Source: Methanomassiliicoccales archaeon
Lineage (GTDB): Archaea > Thermoplasmatota > Thermoplasmata > Methanomassiliicoccales > UBA472
NCBI GenBank assembly: GCA_028682895.1
Contig: JAJRAK010000001.1
Coordinates: 62,001 to 126,000 of the forward strand
Length of the DNA: 64,000 bases
Reading direction: 5' to 3'
Position numbers and translations under genes: made by a program
Shown here: one piece after another, positions 46,735-59,302 of the stretch
How the letters are laid out: the number at the start of each line of letters is the position of its first letter
How positions within the stretch are numbered: the stretch's first letter is position 1
The notes under the pieces: model-generated
Seen by the model: the letters and a program-made list of their open reading frames with translations, nothing else
What the model was told of the DNA's origin: nothing
Databases searched by the model: none

Positions 46735-47007
46735 ATGGACCCCGAGACCATGCTGGGCCTGTTGGCCGGTTTCCTGACCACCGTAGGCTACATTCCTCAG
46801 ATCATAAGGGCGCTGAAGACCCATAGCATGGACGACTTCTCGTTATCTATGCCGCTCCTGCTGATGATCGGCATGGGCCTCTGGCTCGTCTATGGCATCA
46901 TGCTGAACGACCTTCCACTGATCATATGGAACATGGTGGCCATGGCCTTCAACGCGGGGCTGGTGCTGTTGAAGCTCATCTACTCCAAGCCCAAGCCGTC
47001 CCCGTGA
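46735..47007 (+). CDS. SemiSWEET / PQ-loop family small transporter
   Basis: GLLAGFLTTVGYIPQIIRALKTHSMDDFSLSMPLLLMIGMGLWLVYGI. Confidence 0.88.
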   Translation: MDPETMLGLLAGFLTTVGYIPQIIRALKTHSMDDFSLSMPLLLMIGMGLWLVYGIMLNDLPLIIWNMVAMAFNAGLVLLKLIYSKPKPSP

Positions 47008-47014
47008 TCGCCGT

Positions 47015-47731
47015 TCATTTGTTCGGGAACGAGAACGGGCACACGGCGATGCATCTTCCGCAGGCCATCTCCGGCTTGCTCCCGTCGCCGATCAATCTTT
47101 TCTCATAGTCCCCGCATTTGGCCCAATCGATGACATCGTCCCTGGACGCTGGGTGATGCTTGAAGCCAGCTCCTTTCAGCACCTTCATGGCGCACTTGTC
47201 TATGCAGGCGGTGCAATCGCCGCACTTGTTGTCGATGAGCGTCGCTCCCTCCCTCATCGGCATGTCAGTGAGCACGGCTCCCATGCGCTGACGCGGACCA
47301 CATCTCTCGGTGATGAACAGTCCGTTCTTCCCTATCCATCCCAATCCCGCCTGGGCGGCGATGGCCTTCTGGGAGATCGCACCGAGGAGGCGCTCAGGGT
47401 CGACCCGCTGCGCAGGGTCGATGAAACGGGCCTTGTACCCGGCCTCGGTCAGCATGGCGACGATCTTCTCACCGGCGGCCTTCAGCTTCTTATTGCACAT
47501 CTTATAGGCCTCTCTCATCTCGGTGCTTGGTTTGTTCATTGATGCTCTGACAGCGGCCTCTGGTATCTCCACGGCGAAGGTGATGGCCGATGGGAATTGG
47601 AGGACGGTATCGTCCCCGGTCTGGATCCCCTTCAACGGTGCAAGGTCGGCGAACCCGACAAGGAAGGAGCCTTCGTTCATTGCGGTCTCCATTATCCTGT
47701 TATACATGACCTCGATCGGATCAGATATCAT
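47015..47731 (-). CDS. 4Fe-4S protein (QueG-like reductase family)
   Basis: CGDCTACIDKCAMKVLKGAGFKHHPASRDDVIDW, CGRCIAVCPFSFP; likely start MISDPIEVMYNRI inside ORF 47015..47809. Confidence 0.8.
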   Translation of the reverse strand: MISDPIEVMYNRIMETAMNEGSFLVGFADLAPLKGIQTGDDTVLQFPSAITFAVEIPEAAVRASMNKPSTEMREAYKMCNKKLKAAGEKIVAMLTEAGYKARFIDPAQRVDPERLLGAISQKAIAAQAGLGWIGKNGLFITERCGPRQRMGAVLTDMPMREGATLIDNKCGDCTACIDKCAMKVLKGAGFKHHPASRDDVIDWAKCGDYEKRLIGDGSKPEMACGRCIAVCPFSFPNK

Positions 47732-47778
47732 GCTTATTCGATTGCTCCGCCCATGATTAATAGGTTGTCCCGGACACC

Positions 47779-48492
47779 CTACCGTTCGCCAGGGAAAGAG
47801 AACGGGCATGTGGAGATGCAGTTACCGCATACTTTCGGATGGCGATCATCCAATAACTTGTCCTCGTTCTCACCGCACTTGACCCAATCTATCACTAGGT
47901 CGCGTGAACCCGGATGGTGCTGGAACCTTGCACCTTTCAACGCCTTCATCGGGCAATTATCGATGCAGATCGTGCATTCGCCGCACTTGCTGTCGATGAG
48001 AGGCGCATTCTTCAGCACGGGCATGTCCGTGAGCACGGCGCCCAACCGTTGCCGGGCACCATTGATGTCTGTCATGAACAACCCGTTCCGTCCGATCCAT
48101 CCCAATCCCGCCTGGGCGGCTATGGCCTTCTGGGATATCGGGCCGATGAGATGCTTCTGGTCCACATTCTGGGTCCGGTTGACGAAGCGGGCATTGTACC
48201 CGGCCTCGGTCAGCATGGCGACGATCTTGTCACCGATGGCGAGCACCCTCTCATTGTTCGCTAAGTATCCCCTATGCAATTTGGCACTGGGGCCGGTCCT
48301 GCTCATCGGGATGGTGTCTTTCGGTATCTCCACAGCATAACTGACGGCTGAAGGGAACTCGAACACCGTAGGGTCCCCGATCTGGATCCCTTTGAGGTGT
48401 GAGAGGTCAGCGAACCCGACAAGGCCGGAACATTCTCTGGACGCGACCTCCTCGATCCTTGTCTGGAGCATCTCCAAAGGGGTTGGGGCCAT
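47779..48492 (-). CDS. 4Fe-4S protein, tandem paralogue of 47015..47731
   Basis: CGECTICIDNCPMKALKGARFQHHPGSRDLVIDWVKCGENEDKLL, CGNCISTCPFSFPGE. Confidence 0.8.
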   Translation of the reverse strand: MAPTPLEMLQTRIEEVASRECSGLVGFADLSHLKGIQIGDPTVFEFPSAVSYAVEIPKDTIPMSRTGPSAKLHRGYLANNERVLAIGDKIVAMLTEAGYNARFVNRTQNVDQKHLIGPISQKAIAAQAGLGWIGRNGLFMTDINGARQRLGAVLTDMPVLKNAPLIDSKCGECTICIDNCPMKALKGARFQHHPGSRDLVIDWVKCGENEDKLLDDRHPKVCGNCISTCPFSFPGER

Positions 48493-49995: not shown

Positions 49996-50766
49996 CTAGC
50001 GTTGGCACGACGGGCAAAAGATGGTCGTGCGCCCGCCCACCACCATCGTCCGCAGCTCTTGGCCGCATCGGGGGCAGCGCCCGTCCCTTCTCCGGTCCTT
50101 CAAAAGGTATCCTTTTGGAAGGGAAGAGAGATCGCCCTCCGCGGCGATCGAGGCGTTCAGGACCTCACCGATCCGGCGACATATGCCCGACAGGTCGTCA
50201 TCGTCAAGGGATGCCGTGGACGTCCAGGGAGATATCCTCTCCTGGAAGAGCACCTCGTCCGCGTAGAGATTCCCGACCCCGGCCAGGATGGACTGGTCAA
50301 GGAGCACGGACTTGATGGCCTTCTTACGTCCGCCTGCCCCGGAGACGAGATCGTCCTCGCTGATCGATAGGGCATCCGGTCCCAGCCCCCTCTCCTTGAC
50401 GAACGGAAGTATGCCATCCACGTACTGGAACCGGCCGAAGCGTCGCGGGTCATTGAGGACGATGGAACCACGGTCCAACCTCAATCTCAACCTCTGATGC
50501 GACGTGCTCTCATCATCACCAATAAGATGAACGCTACCGCTCATACCCAGATGTATGCGAAGGGCGCCCCTGTCCAGCAACAGGAAAAGATGTTTGCCAT
50601 GGCGGCCTGTTCCGATGACCTTCCGACGCAATATCTTCGAGACGAACTCATCGCGGTCCCCCTCGAGCATCTTGGGGTCCAGGACGATGACGCCCTCTAT
50701 GCGACGGCCCAATGTGCGTTCGTGAAGGTACCGTCTGGCGGCCTCCACCTCGGGCAGCTCGGGCAC
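49996..50766 (-). CDS. mutM: Formamidopyrimidine-DNA glycosylase
   Basis: (GTG)PELPEVEAARRYL, zinc finger CPRCGQELRTMVVGGRTTIFCPSCQR; GTG at 50766 gives the catalytic N-terminal Pro-Glu. Confidence 0.93.
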   Translation of the reverse strand: MPELPEVEAARRYLHERTLGRRIEGVIVLDPKMLEGDRDEFVSKILRRKVIGTGRHGKHLFLLLDRGALRIHLGMSGSVHLIGDDESTSHQRLRLRLDRGSIVLNDPRRFGRFQYVDGILPFVKERGLGPDALSISEDDLVSGAGGRKKAIKSVLLDQSILAGVGNLYADEVLFQERISPWTSTASLDDDDLSGICRRIGEVLNASIAAEGDLSSLPKGYLLKDRRRDGRCPRCGQELRTMVVGGRTTIFCPSCQR

Positions 50767-50768
50767 GT

Positions 50769-51107
50769 TCACCACATTGGCAACGAGGTATCGTTGGCCG
50801 CGGCTACGAGCACTTCCTTGAGCTTCTCCGGCGTGGGCACTCCACCGAACAGCTTCAGGCGCTCGTTCACGAAGAGCGCCGGGGCGACGCCGGACCCGTA
50901 CTTCTTGTACAGGGGCATGATCTCGCCGACGAAATAGTACTGCCTGCTCATCTGCGCTTCCGTCGCCGTGACCAGGTCAAGGTCCGCTTCCAGACCCGTC
51001 TCGGCCAATACCTGCTTGATCAGGTCGATATATTTCTTATCGTACACCGCATGCTGCGGCTGGCAGCATGATACGGAGAATATCGTCACCTTGATCTTAT
51101 TCGCCAT
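50769..51107 (-). CDS. Thioredoxin-fold-like small protein with CC motif, possible ArsD-like partner
   Basis: IKVTIFSVSCCQPQHAVYDKKY...GSGVAPALFVNERLKLFGGVPTPEKLKEVL; overlaps arsA end by 11 nt. Confidence 0.6.
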   Translation of the reverse strand: MANKIKVTIFSVSCCQPQHAVYDKKYIDLIKQVLAETGLEADLDLVTATEAQMSRQYYFVGEIMPLYKKYGSGVAPALFVNERLKLFGGVPTPEKLKEVLVAAANDTSLPMW

Positions 51108-52014
51108 AGAGCTCCCTGCCCACCCGTCTCAGTATGTCCATGCCGTAGATGTCCGTGTCGAACAGCGGCACCTGTCTGCGGGTGATGGTGGGGAACCTCT
51201 GCTCTATCTCGGTCAGGTACTTGTCCTGGGTGGCCCTTCTCCTCTCCAGGAACCAGTTGCCCTTCAGCACGTCCTTGGGTATGACCTCGTTGATGATCAG
51301 CGACCTTACCTTGATCCCGAACCCGCCCAGGTCCTCAACGGCCCTGGCAGTTTCCTCTATGGGCAGCTTTTCGGGCAGGAGCACCAAATTGAAGGCGGAT
51401 ACGCTCTCATCAGAGAGCCCCTTCACCGAATGATCATACCTCGCCTTCTCCACCTCCAGGTCGGCCACCATCTTCTCGTCGTAGACGAAGCCGAGCACTT
51501 CCGAAAGCTCGCGGCGGTTCTTGATCTGGTTGGCGATGTAGCCGGACCAGTCGAAAGGCATGGACAGCTCACGGAGCGTGTGCCCGGTGGGCGCGGTATC
51601 GAAAACGACCTTGTCGTGAGTAGTATCATCGAAGAAGCTGACGAACTGGTCGAAGGCGGCGATCTCCTCCGTGCATGGTGTGGACAGCAGCTCGCTGCCG
51701 AACATCGTCGAAAAGCCCTGCATCATCCCCTCCAACCTGCTCTGGAAGACCCCCATGGCCTTCTTGGGGTTTATGTTGAGCCCGCACAGGTTGCGCTCGG
51801 TGCCGATCTTGGTGATGTCGGTGGCACTGATGTCCTGGCCATAGATGGCCGATAGGCTGACGGTCGGGTCGGTGGCCACGATCAAGGTCTTGTAGCCATG
51901 GTCTGACAGCCAGGTAGCTGTCGTTGCGGCCATGGTCGTCTTGCCCACGCCGCCCTTCCCTCCGAAGAACAAGAACTTCTTGCTTTCGATTATATCTCTC
52001 ATCTCATTTTTCAT
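51097..52014 (-). CDS. ArsA/Get3 family ATPase
   Basis: FFGGKGGVGKTTMAATTATWL, VATDPTVSLSAIYG, VFDTAPTGHTLRELSMPFDW. Confidence 0.92.
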   Translation of the reverse strand: MKNEMRDIIESKKFLFFGGKGGVGKTTMAATTATWLSDHGYKTLIVATDPTVSLSAIYGQDISATDITKIGTERNLCGLNINPKKAMGVFQSRLEGMMQGFSTMFGSELLSTPCTEEIAAFDQFVSFFDDTTHDKVVFDTAPTGHTLRELSMPFDWSGYIANQIKNRRELSEVLGFVYDEKMVADLEVEKARYDHSVKGLSDESVSAFNLVLLPEKLPIEETARAVEDLGGFGIKVRSLIINEVIPKDVLKGNWFLERRRATQDKYLTEIEQRFPTITRRQVPLFDTDIYGMDILRRVGRELYGE

Positions 52015-52096
52015 GCGGATCGGTGTGAAAACGCAAGCAACATAGATATTGGTATTCCCGAACCCACCTCCATGTTAGCACTGGGCTCGCCTACGA

Positions 52097-52148
52097 TAAT
52101 ATTTAATATCAATTGGTCAAATTATTTATTTAGTCTTTTCTGGGAGGT
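52097..52148 (+). promoter_or_regulatory. Putative promoter and Shine-Dalgarno of the heliorhodopsin gene
   Basis: AT-rich ataatatttaata / attatttatttag followed by GGGAGGT 6 nt before the TTG start. Confidence 0.5.
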
Positions 52149-52154
52149 TTAAAA

Positions 52155-52934
52155 TTGGAGGAAACTACGACAGACGATGTCAAGTTCAAAAAATTGAGGA
52201 GGTTCAACCTAATAATGGGGTTGTTCCACTTCATCCAGGCAGCGGTGATGTTGGCCATCGCGAACTACGACGTGAAGATGATGTTCACCACTTCGTACAT
52301 CGACGCCTCCGGCGGTTTCCCGCCCATGGGCCCCGGTTCGGCGGTGGAGCTCTTCTCCGTTCCCTTGGGCCCGATGGTGGCCGTGTTCCTGCTGATGTCT
52401 GCCATAGCTCATCTCAGCGTCTCGACGTTCGGTTACAACTGGTACGTCAAGAACCTGAAGATGAACATCAACAAGGCACGCTGGTTCGAGTACGCCCTGT
52501 CGTCATCGTTCATGCTGGTGGTCATTGCCTGGCTTTGCGGCATGTTCGACTTCGTGTCGATAATACTGCTCTTTAGCCTGAATGCCTGCATGAACCTGTT
52601 CGGCTACATGATGGAGCTGCATAACCAGAGGACGGAGAGGACCGATTGGACATCGTTCATATTCGGATGCTTTGCCGGGCTGATCCCGTGGGTGGCGCTG
52701 TTCATGTACTTCACCGGGGTCAGGGGCGGAAGCCCACCGGGCTTCGTGTACGGGATCATGATCTCCATCTGCTTCTTCTTCAACGTGTTCGCCATCAACA
52801 TGCTGCTGCAATACCGGAAGAAGGGCAAGTACCAGGACTACCTCTACGGGGAGTACATCTACATCGTCCTGAGCCTGGTGGCCAAGACCGCACTGGCATG
52901 GCAGGTGTTCTCCGGTACGATGGTCGGAAGCTGA
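52155..52934 (+). CDS. Heliorhodopsin
   Basis: Seven-TM; RWFEYALSSSFM (counterion Glu112), NACMNLFGYMMELHN, FNVFAINMLLQYRKKGKYQDYLYGEYIYIVLSLVAKTALAWQVFSGT with predicted retinal Lys244 (codon 52884-52886). Confidence 0.95.
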   Translation: MEETTTDDVKFKKLRRFNLIMGLFHFIQAAVMLAIANYDVKMMFTTSYIDASGGFPPMGPGSAVELFSVPLGPMVAVFLLMSAIAHLSVSTFGYNWYVKNLKMNINKARWFEYALSSSFMLVVIAWLCGMFDFVSIILLFSLNACMNLFGYMMELHNQRTERTDWTSFIFGCFAGLIPWVALFMYFTGVRGGSPPGFVYGIMISICFFFNVFAINMLLQYRKKGKYQDYLYGEYIYIVLSLVAKTALAWQVFSGTMVGS

Positions 52935-52961: not shown

Positions 52962-54461
52962 TTATCTCGCTTTATAAGTACGGGCATCCCCGCATTGCAC
53001 CAGTTTGCCGTCCTCAAGGTAGGATATCGCCCCGTGCCCTCCGCAGACCAGGCACTTCCGCCCGTCGTTCGTCCTCTCCACCTCTTCAATGAGGCCGAGG
53101 AGCCCCTTCCTTTCCTTCGAGGCCTTACCGCTGTCGACGTTCACCGTGGTCATCAGGTTCTTGGCCAAGGTGGCGAAGCCCTTGCGGTCCTCGGTCAGAC
53201 TGTCGAAGTTGATGAGGCTATCTCCGGTGAAGAGCACCAGTTTCTCAGGCAGGAAGAAGAACACCTGTCCTATCTGGTGCCCGCCGAACCCTTCCAGCAC
53301 CTCGCATCTCATGCCGGCCACGTCCATTATGGACAGGACGTTGAACTCACCCCTTTTTCCAATGGCGGAGCGCGGGAACGTTCGTGGCGTACTGCACACC
53401 GAGAAGTCGGAGAAGAGGTTGATCAGCTTGGTGTAGATCTCCTCCAGGATTGAACCCTCGCTCTCCGAGCCATAGGCCCTGTTCGCTTGACGGATGACCT
53501 CAACGGTATCGGGGTGCATCCACACCTCAGCGTTCAGAAGTCCAGCAGAGCCTGAATGGTCAGCGTCCCCGTGTGTCAGCATGGTCCTTTTCACCATGCC
53601 CATCCCTCCCCATCCTTCCTTCTCCATCAGGAGGTCCAGGTCACGGTAGTAGATGCCGAACCCAGTATCGATCAGGGTGACATCGGTCCCTTGGCGCAGA
53701 AGGTAGGTGTTCCCTCCGCATGGCAGCTGCACGCACAGGATGTGCGCTCCACCAATGTCCACGTCCTGCAGTTCGGCATAGAAACCGTCCCCGCTCGTCC
53801 TTTTAAGATCACCGCCGCTGCGCAGGATGTCCGAGAAGACCAGATGCGGGTCCTTCCCCAGGTTCATAAGCTCCTGTACGATGTGATTGACATCCGAAAG
53901 GAGGCGTAGAAGGAAGGCATCCTCGGTCTTGTCCAGCAGGCGCCGCAGTTCCTGGGCGAAGCGAATGTAGAAGACCGTATCGTCAAGGTGTTGGCCCGTT
54001 GTATCGTATTCTATGATCTCCAGGGGGTAGCGTGACTTGAGCGCTTCCAGCAGGCGGTCCACCGACTCGCCGCTCTCTACGGTGAGGGAGACGGTCAACC
54101 GCTCCGGGTGCTTCCCGCGGTCATCGAAGTCCAAGAAGGCGATGTTGCACTTCGAGGCCGTGGTGAAGTTAAGAAAATCGAAGAGGGCGCCGCTGCGGTT
54201 CGGCAACATGACCTGGAACTTGAGGAAGCTGGGTGTGATTATCTGCCCCTGGAGGTACCCGATGGCCTCCAGCTCTGCCCGCATGGCCAAATAATCATCG
54301 TCCGAGCACCGGGCCTCGAAGAACACAGTATAAGGGTCGATCCTCTTGTCATACTGGATCCGGTCGATGTTGCCCCCGTGGCGTTTCACTATCTCGGCCG
54401 CGCGATGCAACGCTCCTGGCTCATCAGGCATCTTGGCGACGAAGTAGTGCCTCTGCATCAT
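52962..54461 (-). CDS. Two N-terminal ACT domains fused to an MBL-fold domain with HGDADH motif
   Basis: FVAKMPDEPGALHRAAEIVKRHGGNI, FQVMLPNRSGALFDFLNF, LTHGDADHSGSAGLLNAEVWMHP, GGHQIGQVFFFLPEKLVLFTGDSL. Confidence 0.85.
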   Translation of the reverse strand: MMQRHYFVAKMPDEPGALHRAAEIVKRHGGNIDRIQYDKRIDPYTVFFEARCSDDDYLAMRAELEAIGYLQGQIITPSFLKFQVMLPNRSGALFDFLNFTTASKCNIAFLDFDDRGKHPERLTVSLTVESGESVDRLLEALKSRYPLEIIEYDTTGQHLDDTVFYIRFAQELRRLLDKTEDAFLLRLLSDVNHIVQELMNLGKDPHLVFSDILRSGGDLKRTSGDGFYAELQDVDIGGAHILCVQLPCGGNTYLLRQGTDVTLIDTGFGIYYRDLDLLMEKEGWGGMGMVKRTMLTHGDADHSGSAGLLNAEVWMHPDTVEVIRQANRAYGSESEGSILEEIYTKLINLFSDFSVCSTPRTFPRSAIGKRGEFNVLSIMDVAGMRCEVLEGFGGHQIGQVFFFLPEKLVLFTGDSLINFDSLTEDRKGFATLAKNLMTTVNVDSGKASKERKGLLGLIEEVERTNDGRKCLVCGGHGAISYLEDGKLVQCGDARTYKAR

Positions 54462-59244: not shown

Positions 59245-59302
59245 GCAAGAGGTTCGATGACGCACGCGTCGAACAGCTCCAGAACGACCCTCGATCATAT
59301 CC

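Follow-up and report, generated by a model that had tools for sequence, protein, structure and literature searches.

A heliorhodopsin in a methanogen of the order Methanomassiliicoccales that has no recognisable route to its own retinal

The heliorhodopsin locus and its host

The window, the whole 64,000-nucleotide stretch of DNA analysed, corresponds to G000:C5:62001-126000 of an archaeal assembly of 1.66 Mb that is estimated to be 91% complete. It harbors a heliorhodopsin gene that is divergent from an ArsA-type ATPase gene and convergent with a metallo-beta-lactamase-type gene. The features relevant to the analysis are as follows.

46735..47007, plus strand: SemiSWEET transporter (NF037968 above cut-off), relatives of which lie upstream of heliorhodopsin in a gut-type clade
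47015..48492, minus strand: a tandem pair of QueG/reductive-dehalogenase-like ferredoxin proteins, a type found repeatedly near heliorhodopsin in families f1 and f6
49996..50775, minus strand: Fpg-type DNA glycosylase for oxidative DNA damage repair (PF01149, PF06831), in the same conserved block as the next gene
50769..51107, minus strand: thioredoxin-fold protein (PF13192) with a weak match to the ArsE-type family (TIGR00412, below cut-off), in conserved order
51097..52014, minus strand: ArsA/Get3-type ATPase (PF02374, 239.7 bits), the divergent neighbour, beside heliorhodopsin in 8 loci of its own family
52015..52154, plus strand: 140-bp intergenic region common to the divergent ArsA and heliorhodopsin genes, read directly from the sequence
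52155..52934, plus strand: heliorhodopsin gene, 259 amino acids, TTG start, counterion E112, Schiff-base lysine K244 in S240xxxK244
52962..54461, minus strand: ACT and metallo-beta-lactamase (MBL) protein, the convergent neighbour, conserved in 8 loci
59245..59302, no strand: 58-bp junction at which relatives carry a photolyase gene, missing here and in genome G018

Direct reading of the sequence places a GGGAGG ribosome-binding site immediately 5' of the TTG start and an AT-rich TATA-like stretch at about 52098-52109 in the intergenic region, the latter a putative promoter. A scan of the immediate neighbours revealed no recognisable histidine kinase or dedicated transducer.

The host genome encodes McrA and its closest named relatives are Methanomassiliicoccales, RumEn M2 among them, which together identify the host as a methanogen; the order is known for H2-dependent methyl reduction. 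The sequence-only reading had correctly placed the DNA in the archaea (Thermoplasmatota) and recognised the heliorhodopsin, and had missed the methanogen host, the history of gene transfer and the link to an SDR described below.

Family membership and constraint on the protein

The claim of a 259-residue heliorhodopsin is borne out by profile, fold and diagnostic residues, and the window protein is a bona fide member of the family. It matches PF18761 end to end (profile positions 1-242, 320.7 bits against a cut-off of 26.7, E=6.7e-96), which is its sole Pfam match, the type-1 microbial rhodopsin profile PF01036 being absent, and it matches the NCBIfam HeR equivalog NF038020 at 309.8 bits (cut-off 100). 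The best solved homologue is TaHeR of Thermoplasmatales archaeon SG8-52-1 (PDB 6is6; E=5e-74, ~49% identity). An AlphaFold2 model (pLDDT 87) has the seven-helix heliorhodopsin fold and superposes on 6is6 in Foldseek with TM scores of 0.91/0.94 and an rmsd of 1.4, the best non-heliorhodopsin structure reaching only E=3e-3. The counterion Glu112 and Lys244, both proposed at these positions from the sequence alone, are present, and the glutamate and the helix 7 SxxxK motif, which TaHeR shares, are invariant in 39 relatives. From homology to TaHeR and 48C12, the protein would adopt the inverted topology of the family with its N terminus in the cytoplasm. The 48C12 heliorhodopsin (PDB 6su3/6uh3) is 44% identical to the window protein and differs in being actinobacterial.

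The proton network of 48C12 consists of 15 residues (PMC9726877), and all 15 are identical in the window protein. Across 39 complete proteins 13 of them are invariant, including E112, K244, H25, H86 and W249, with S82 replaced by C or T and S116 by T only; compared with polar columns, this invariance has a P value of about 5e-8. Estimates of dN/dS are mostly 0.05-0.2 (about 0.1) across clades, those of the gut-type clade included, and the close relatives of the protein in the cow-rumen archaeon retain every light-reaction residue. The invariant network and the low dN/dS together indicate that a retinal-type protein is being maintained.

Heliorhodopsin is present in 39 of the 147 Methanomassiliicoccales genomes, several of which are incomplete assemblies, and in five of the six families, the cow-rumen strain RumEn M2 included; the 39 comprise one genome (G021) whose short match falls below the cut-off. 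This patchy distribution, the broken or partial copies that a few genomes carry (with stops in G024, incomplete in G021 and G032) and the lack of retinal synthesis genes are what a relic or nearly neutral gene would leave, one kept by recent transfer and free of chromophore in vivo. Such a relic is nevertheless highly improbable and already disfavoured, given the strong purifying selection across clades and the conservation of the lysine, the glutamate and the network residues.

Two loci (L061 8784-10488 and L066 8493-10281) each contain two tandem heliorhodopsins that are 48-51% identical and belong to different deep clades, and hence did not arise by recent duplication. One IMG/VR contig with a heliorhodopsin (L166 3387-4202, 44% identity) was set aside as a viral example, as its neighbours look bacterial and it is possibly a misfiled host contig.

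In the literature searched, no paper pairs heliorhodopsin with Methanomassiliicoccales, and a Methanomassiliicoccus-type word occurs together with heliorhodopsin in a single paper, as one mention in an Asgard transporter study. Bulzu et al. scanned GTDB r89 and list 469 heliorhodopsins, and their tables may include members of the order. Family membership itself is ordinary; what is of interest is the methanogen and rumen setting together with the SDR link, neither of which seems to have been discussed in the literature searched.

Retinal supply, photolyase and the linked dehydrogenase

The sequence-only reading had noted that the window holds neither a type-1 rhodopsin nor genes for carotenoid or retinal synthesis and had left the source of retinal open. 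Both points hold well beyond the window, in the host genome (91% complete) and in the order. Profile searches of the 147 genomes, the host among them, returned nothing over cut-off for Blh/Brp, carotenoid oxygenase or type-1 rhodopsin (PF01036). Sub-threshold Blh matches, of which the host's own scores 20.7 bits, were rejected, the two inspected overlapping secretion/pilus-type membrane proteins beside an ATPase. Phytoene synthase was likewise rejected as a source of retinal: it is absent from the host genome and present in 11 of the 147 genomes (10 of the 11 heliorhodopsin-positive), where the loci scanned (L138-L147) are crtI-crtB-UbiA clusters that look like a pathway to an acyclic, perhaps C50, carotenoid and not to beta-carotene. 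The host therefore has no recognisable route to its own retinal. Both known retinal-forming enzymes need oxygen, from which exogenous retinal or retinol follows as the natural inference.

The surroundings of the gene are conserved among relatives. In genus g1 of family f1, the order is ArsR, DUF2284, Fpg, thioredoxin-fold protein, ArsA, heliorhodopsin and ACT-MBL, and the segment from the thioredoxin-fold gene to ACT-MBL is also conserved in g4 and g7. Six complete loci of relatives in the host's family have a photolyase gene further on, at a distance of 4-8 kb from heliorhodopsin; the corresponding junction is empty, at 58-72 bp, in the window and in G018, and photolyase is absent from the entire host genome. 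The host has thus lost the photolyase that stands near heliorhodopsin in its relatives.

This neighbourhood might be read as an island for the repair of light damage, in which heliorhodopsin binds photolyase and activates it in light. A precedent exists in the TfHeR-photolyase pair of Trichococcus flocculiformis (PMC9769723), the Fpg gene is also close to heliorhodopsin, and of the 147 genomes, 28 have photolyase over cut-off and 23 of these are heliorhodopsin-positive. Unlike in the T. flocculiformis case, however, the window genome has no photolyase at all, and 16 of the 39 heliorhodopsin genomes lack it as well, among them every one of the five in the gut-type clade. As heliorhodopsin persists in the window genome and G018, and under strong constraint, it does not depend on photolyase here, and a role as repair helper is considered rather unlikely.

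The heliorhodopsins of genera g27 and g30 of family f6 nest with those of f1 genus g1 (support 95/96). Their identity to the window protein is 80-83%, against 72-75% for the McrA proteins of the same pairs. A retinol-dehydrogenase-like SDR of the PRK06197 family displays the same nesting; its gene stands upstream of heliorhodopsin, in the same orientation, in each of the five g27/g30 genomes, and about 5.6 kb away in G020. In L085, L086 and L089, a relative of the tandem QueG-like genes separates SemiSWEET from heliorhodopsin. The simplest reading is a block transfer from f1 to f6, in which the gut-type clade acquired heliorhodopsin and SDR from the host's genus. RumEn M2 originates from the cow rumen (PMC10658910) and is assigned to a host-associated clade (PMC7824343); from this strain and the genome numbering, f6 is probably the gut family Methanomethylophilaceae, with a presumed size of 102 genomes.

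In f5, genomes G033 and G044 have a distinct SDR from the same broad family 17-20 bp downstream of heliorhodopsin, which brings to two the number of separate heliorhodopsin clades with an adjoining SDR. In f6, every one of the 10 genomes with heliorhodopsin carries the SDR, and a genus-level count of the association there gives 1/1001; within f1 and f5 the association is weak (P 0.37 and 0.21, values that ignore shared ancestry). Fifteen heliorhodopsin genomes, some with fragmentary copies, have no SDR at or above 200 bits. The linked clade-I SDR, exemplified by the minus-strand gene at L086:10462-11400, is absent from the host and from G018; the one SDR of this kind that the host encodes is a distant relative (35% identity) at an unlinked site.

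SDR family oxidoreductases are among ten frequent heliorhodopsin neighbours (PMC11109279), and retinol dehydrogenases were raised as a possibility for Bathyarchaeota, likewise anaerobic archaea that possess heliorhodopsins and retinol dehydrogenase genes and whose retinal synthesis is incomplete (PMC7110647). Those archaea are not methanogens of this order, and the part of that report available does not describe linkage or co-inheritance of the dehydrogenase with heliorhodopsin. The linkage and co-inheritance in Methanomassiliicoccales are what is newly added here, and the linked gene suggests that members of the gut-type clade may make retinal from scavenged retinol.

A probably functional heliorhodopsin and its possible roles

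The preferred reading, to which we assign a probability of roughly 0.6, is that the protein works as a heliorhodopsin in a methyl-reducing methanogen, using scavenged retinal for light-driven sensing and pumping no ions. The apoprotein would sit in the membrane in the inverted topology and take up retinal from outside the cell, which would form the Schiff base at K244. Green light would then move the Schiff-base proton via E112 to the H86/H25 network, and the ensuing conformational change would pass a signal to a cytoplasmic partner. The likely role would be to sense light or oxidative damage during occasional exposure, consistent with the Fpg glycosylase, the thioredoxin-fold protein and, in the six relative loci, photolyase around the gene. 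In some relatives, retinal may arise anaerobically from exogenous retinol via the linked SDR, if retinol is indeed its substrate. Counted against this reading are the host and G018, which keep heliorhodopsin with neither photolyase nor clade-I SDR, the lack of a recognised transducer nearby and the 15 genomes below the SDR threshold; the rumen relatives, with no known light exposure, count against light sensing in particular.

In dark gut lineages the protein could instead be a light-independent retinoid receptor or carrier, for which retinal or retinol is a chemical cue and the SDR interconverts the two. RumEn M2 has an intact heliorhodopsin with the SDR upstream on the same strand, and the gut-type clade combines the absence of photolyase with equally strong constraint. 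The invariance, however, extends beyond the binding pocket to the whole photochemical proton network, which fits a light reaction, and both the SDR substrate and the habitat of most clade members are putative; we regard a receptor of this kind as quite improbable. A broader proposal is an oxygen-independent retinoid system in methanogens of anoxic, partly gut habitats, in which a mobile cassette of SDR, SemiSWEET and heliorhodopsin would turn scavenged vitamin A into chromophore and sense light, redox state or retinoid, in the rumen as elsewhere. It is speculative and, on present evidence, doubtful.

The window protein resembles TaHeR in counterion, lysine and fold, and differs in its setting, an McrA-encoding methanogen without heliorhodopsin-linked carotenoid genes. 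Heliorhodopsin function is largely unsettled across the family. Methanomassiliicoccales are strict anaerobes in which no pathway to retinal has been recognised, and they include a rumen enrichment strain; the order provides a direct test of an oxygen-free origin of retinal and allows one to ask whether heliorhodopsin acts in the dark. As an anaerobic source of retinal from retinol, the SDR encoded beside heliorhodopsin in relatives is a specific candidate.
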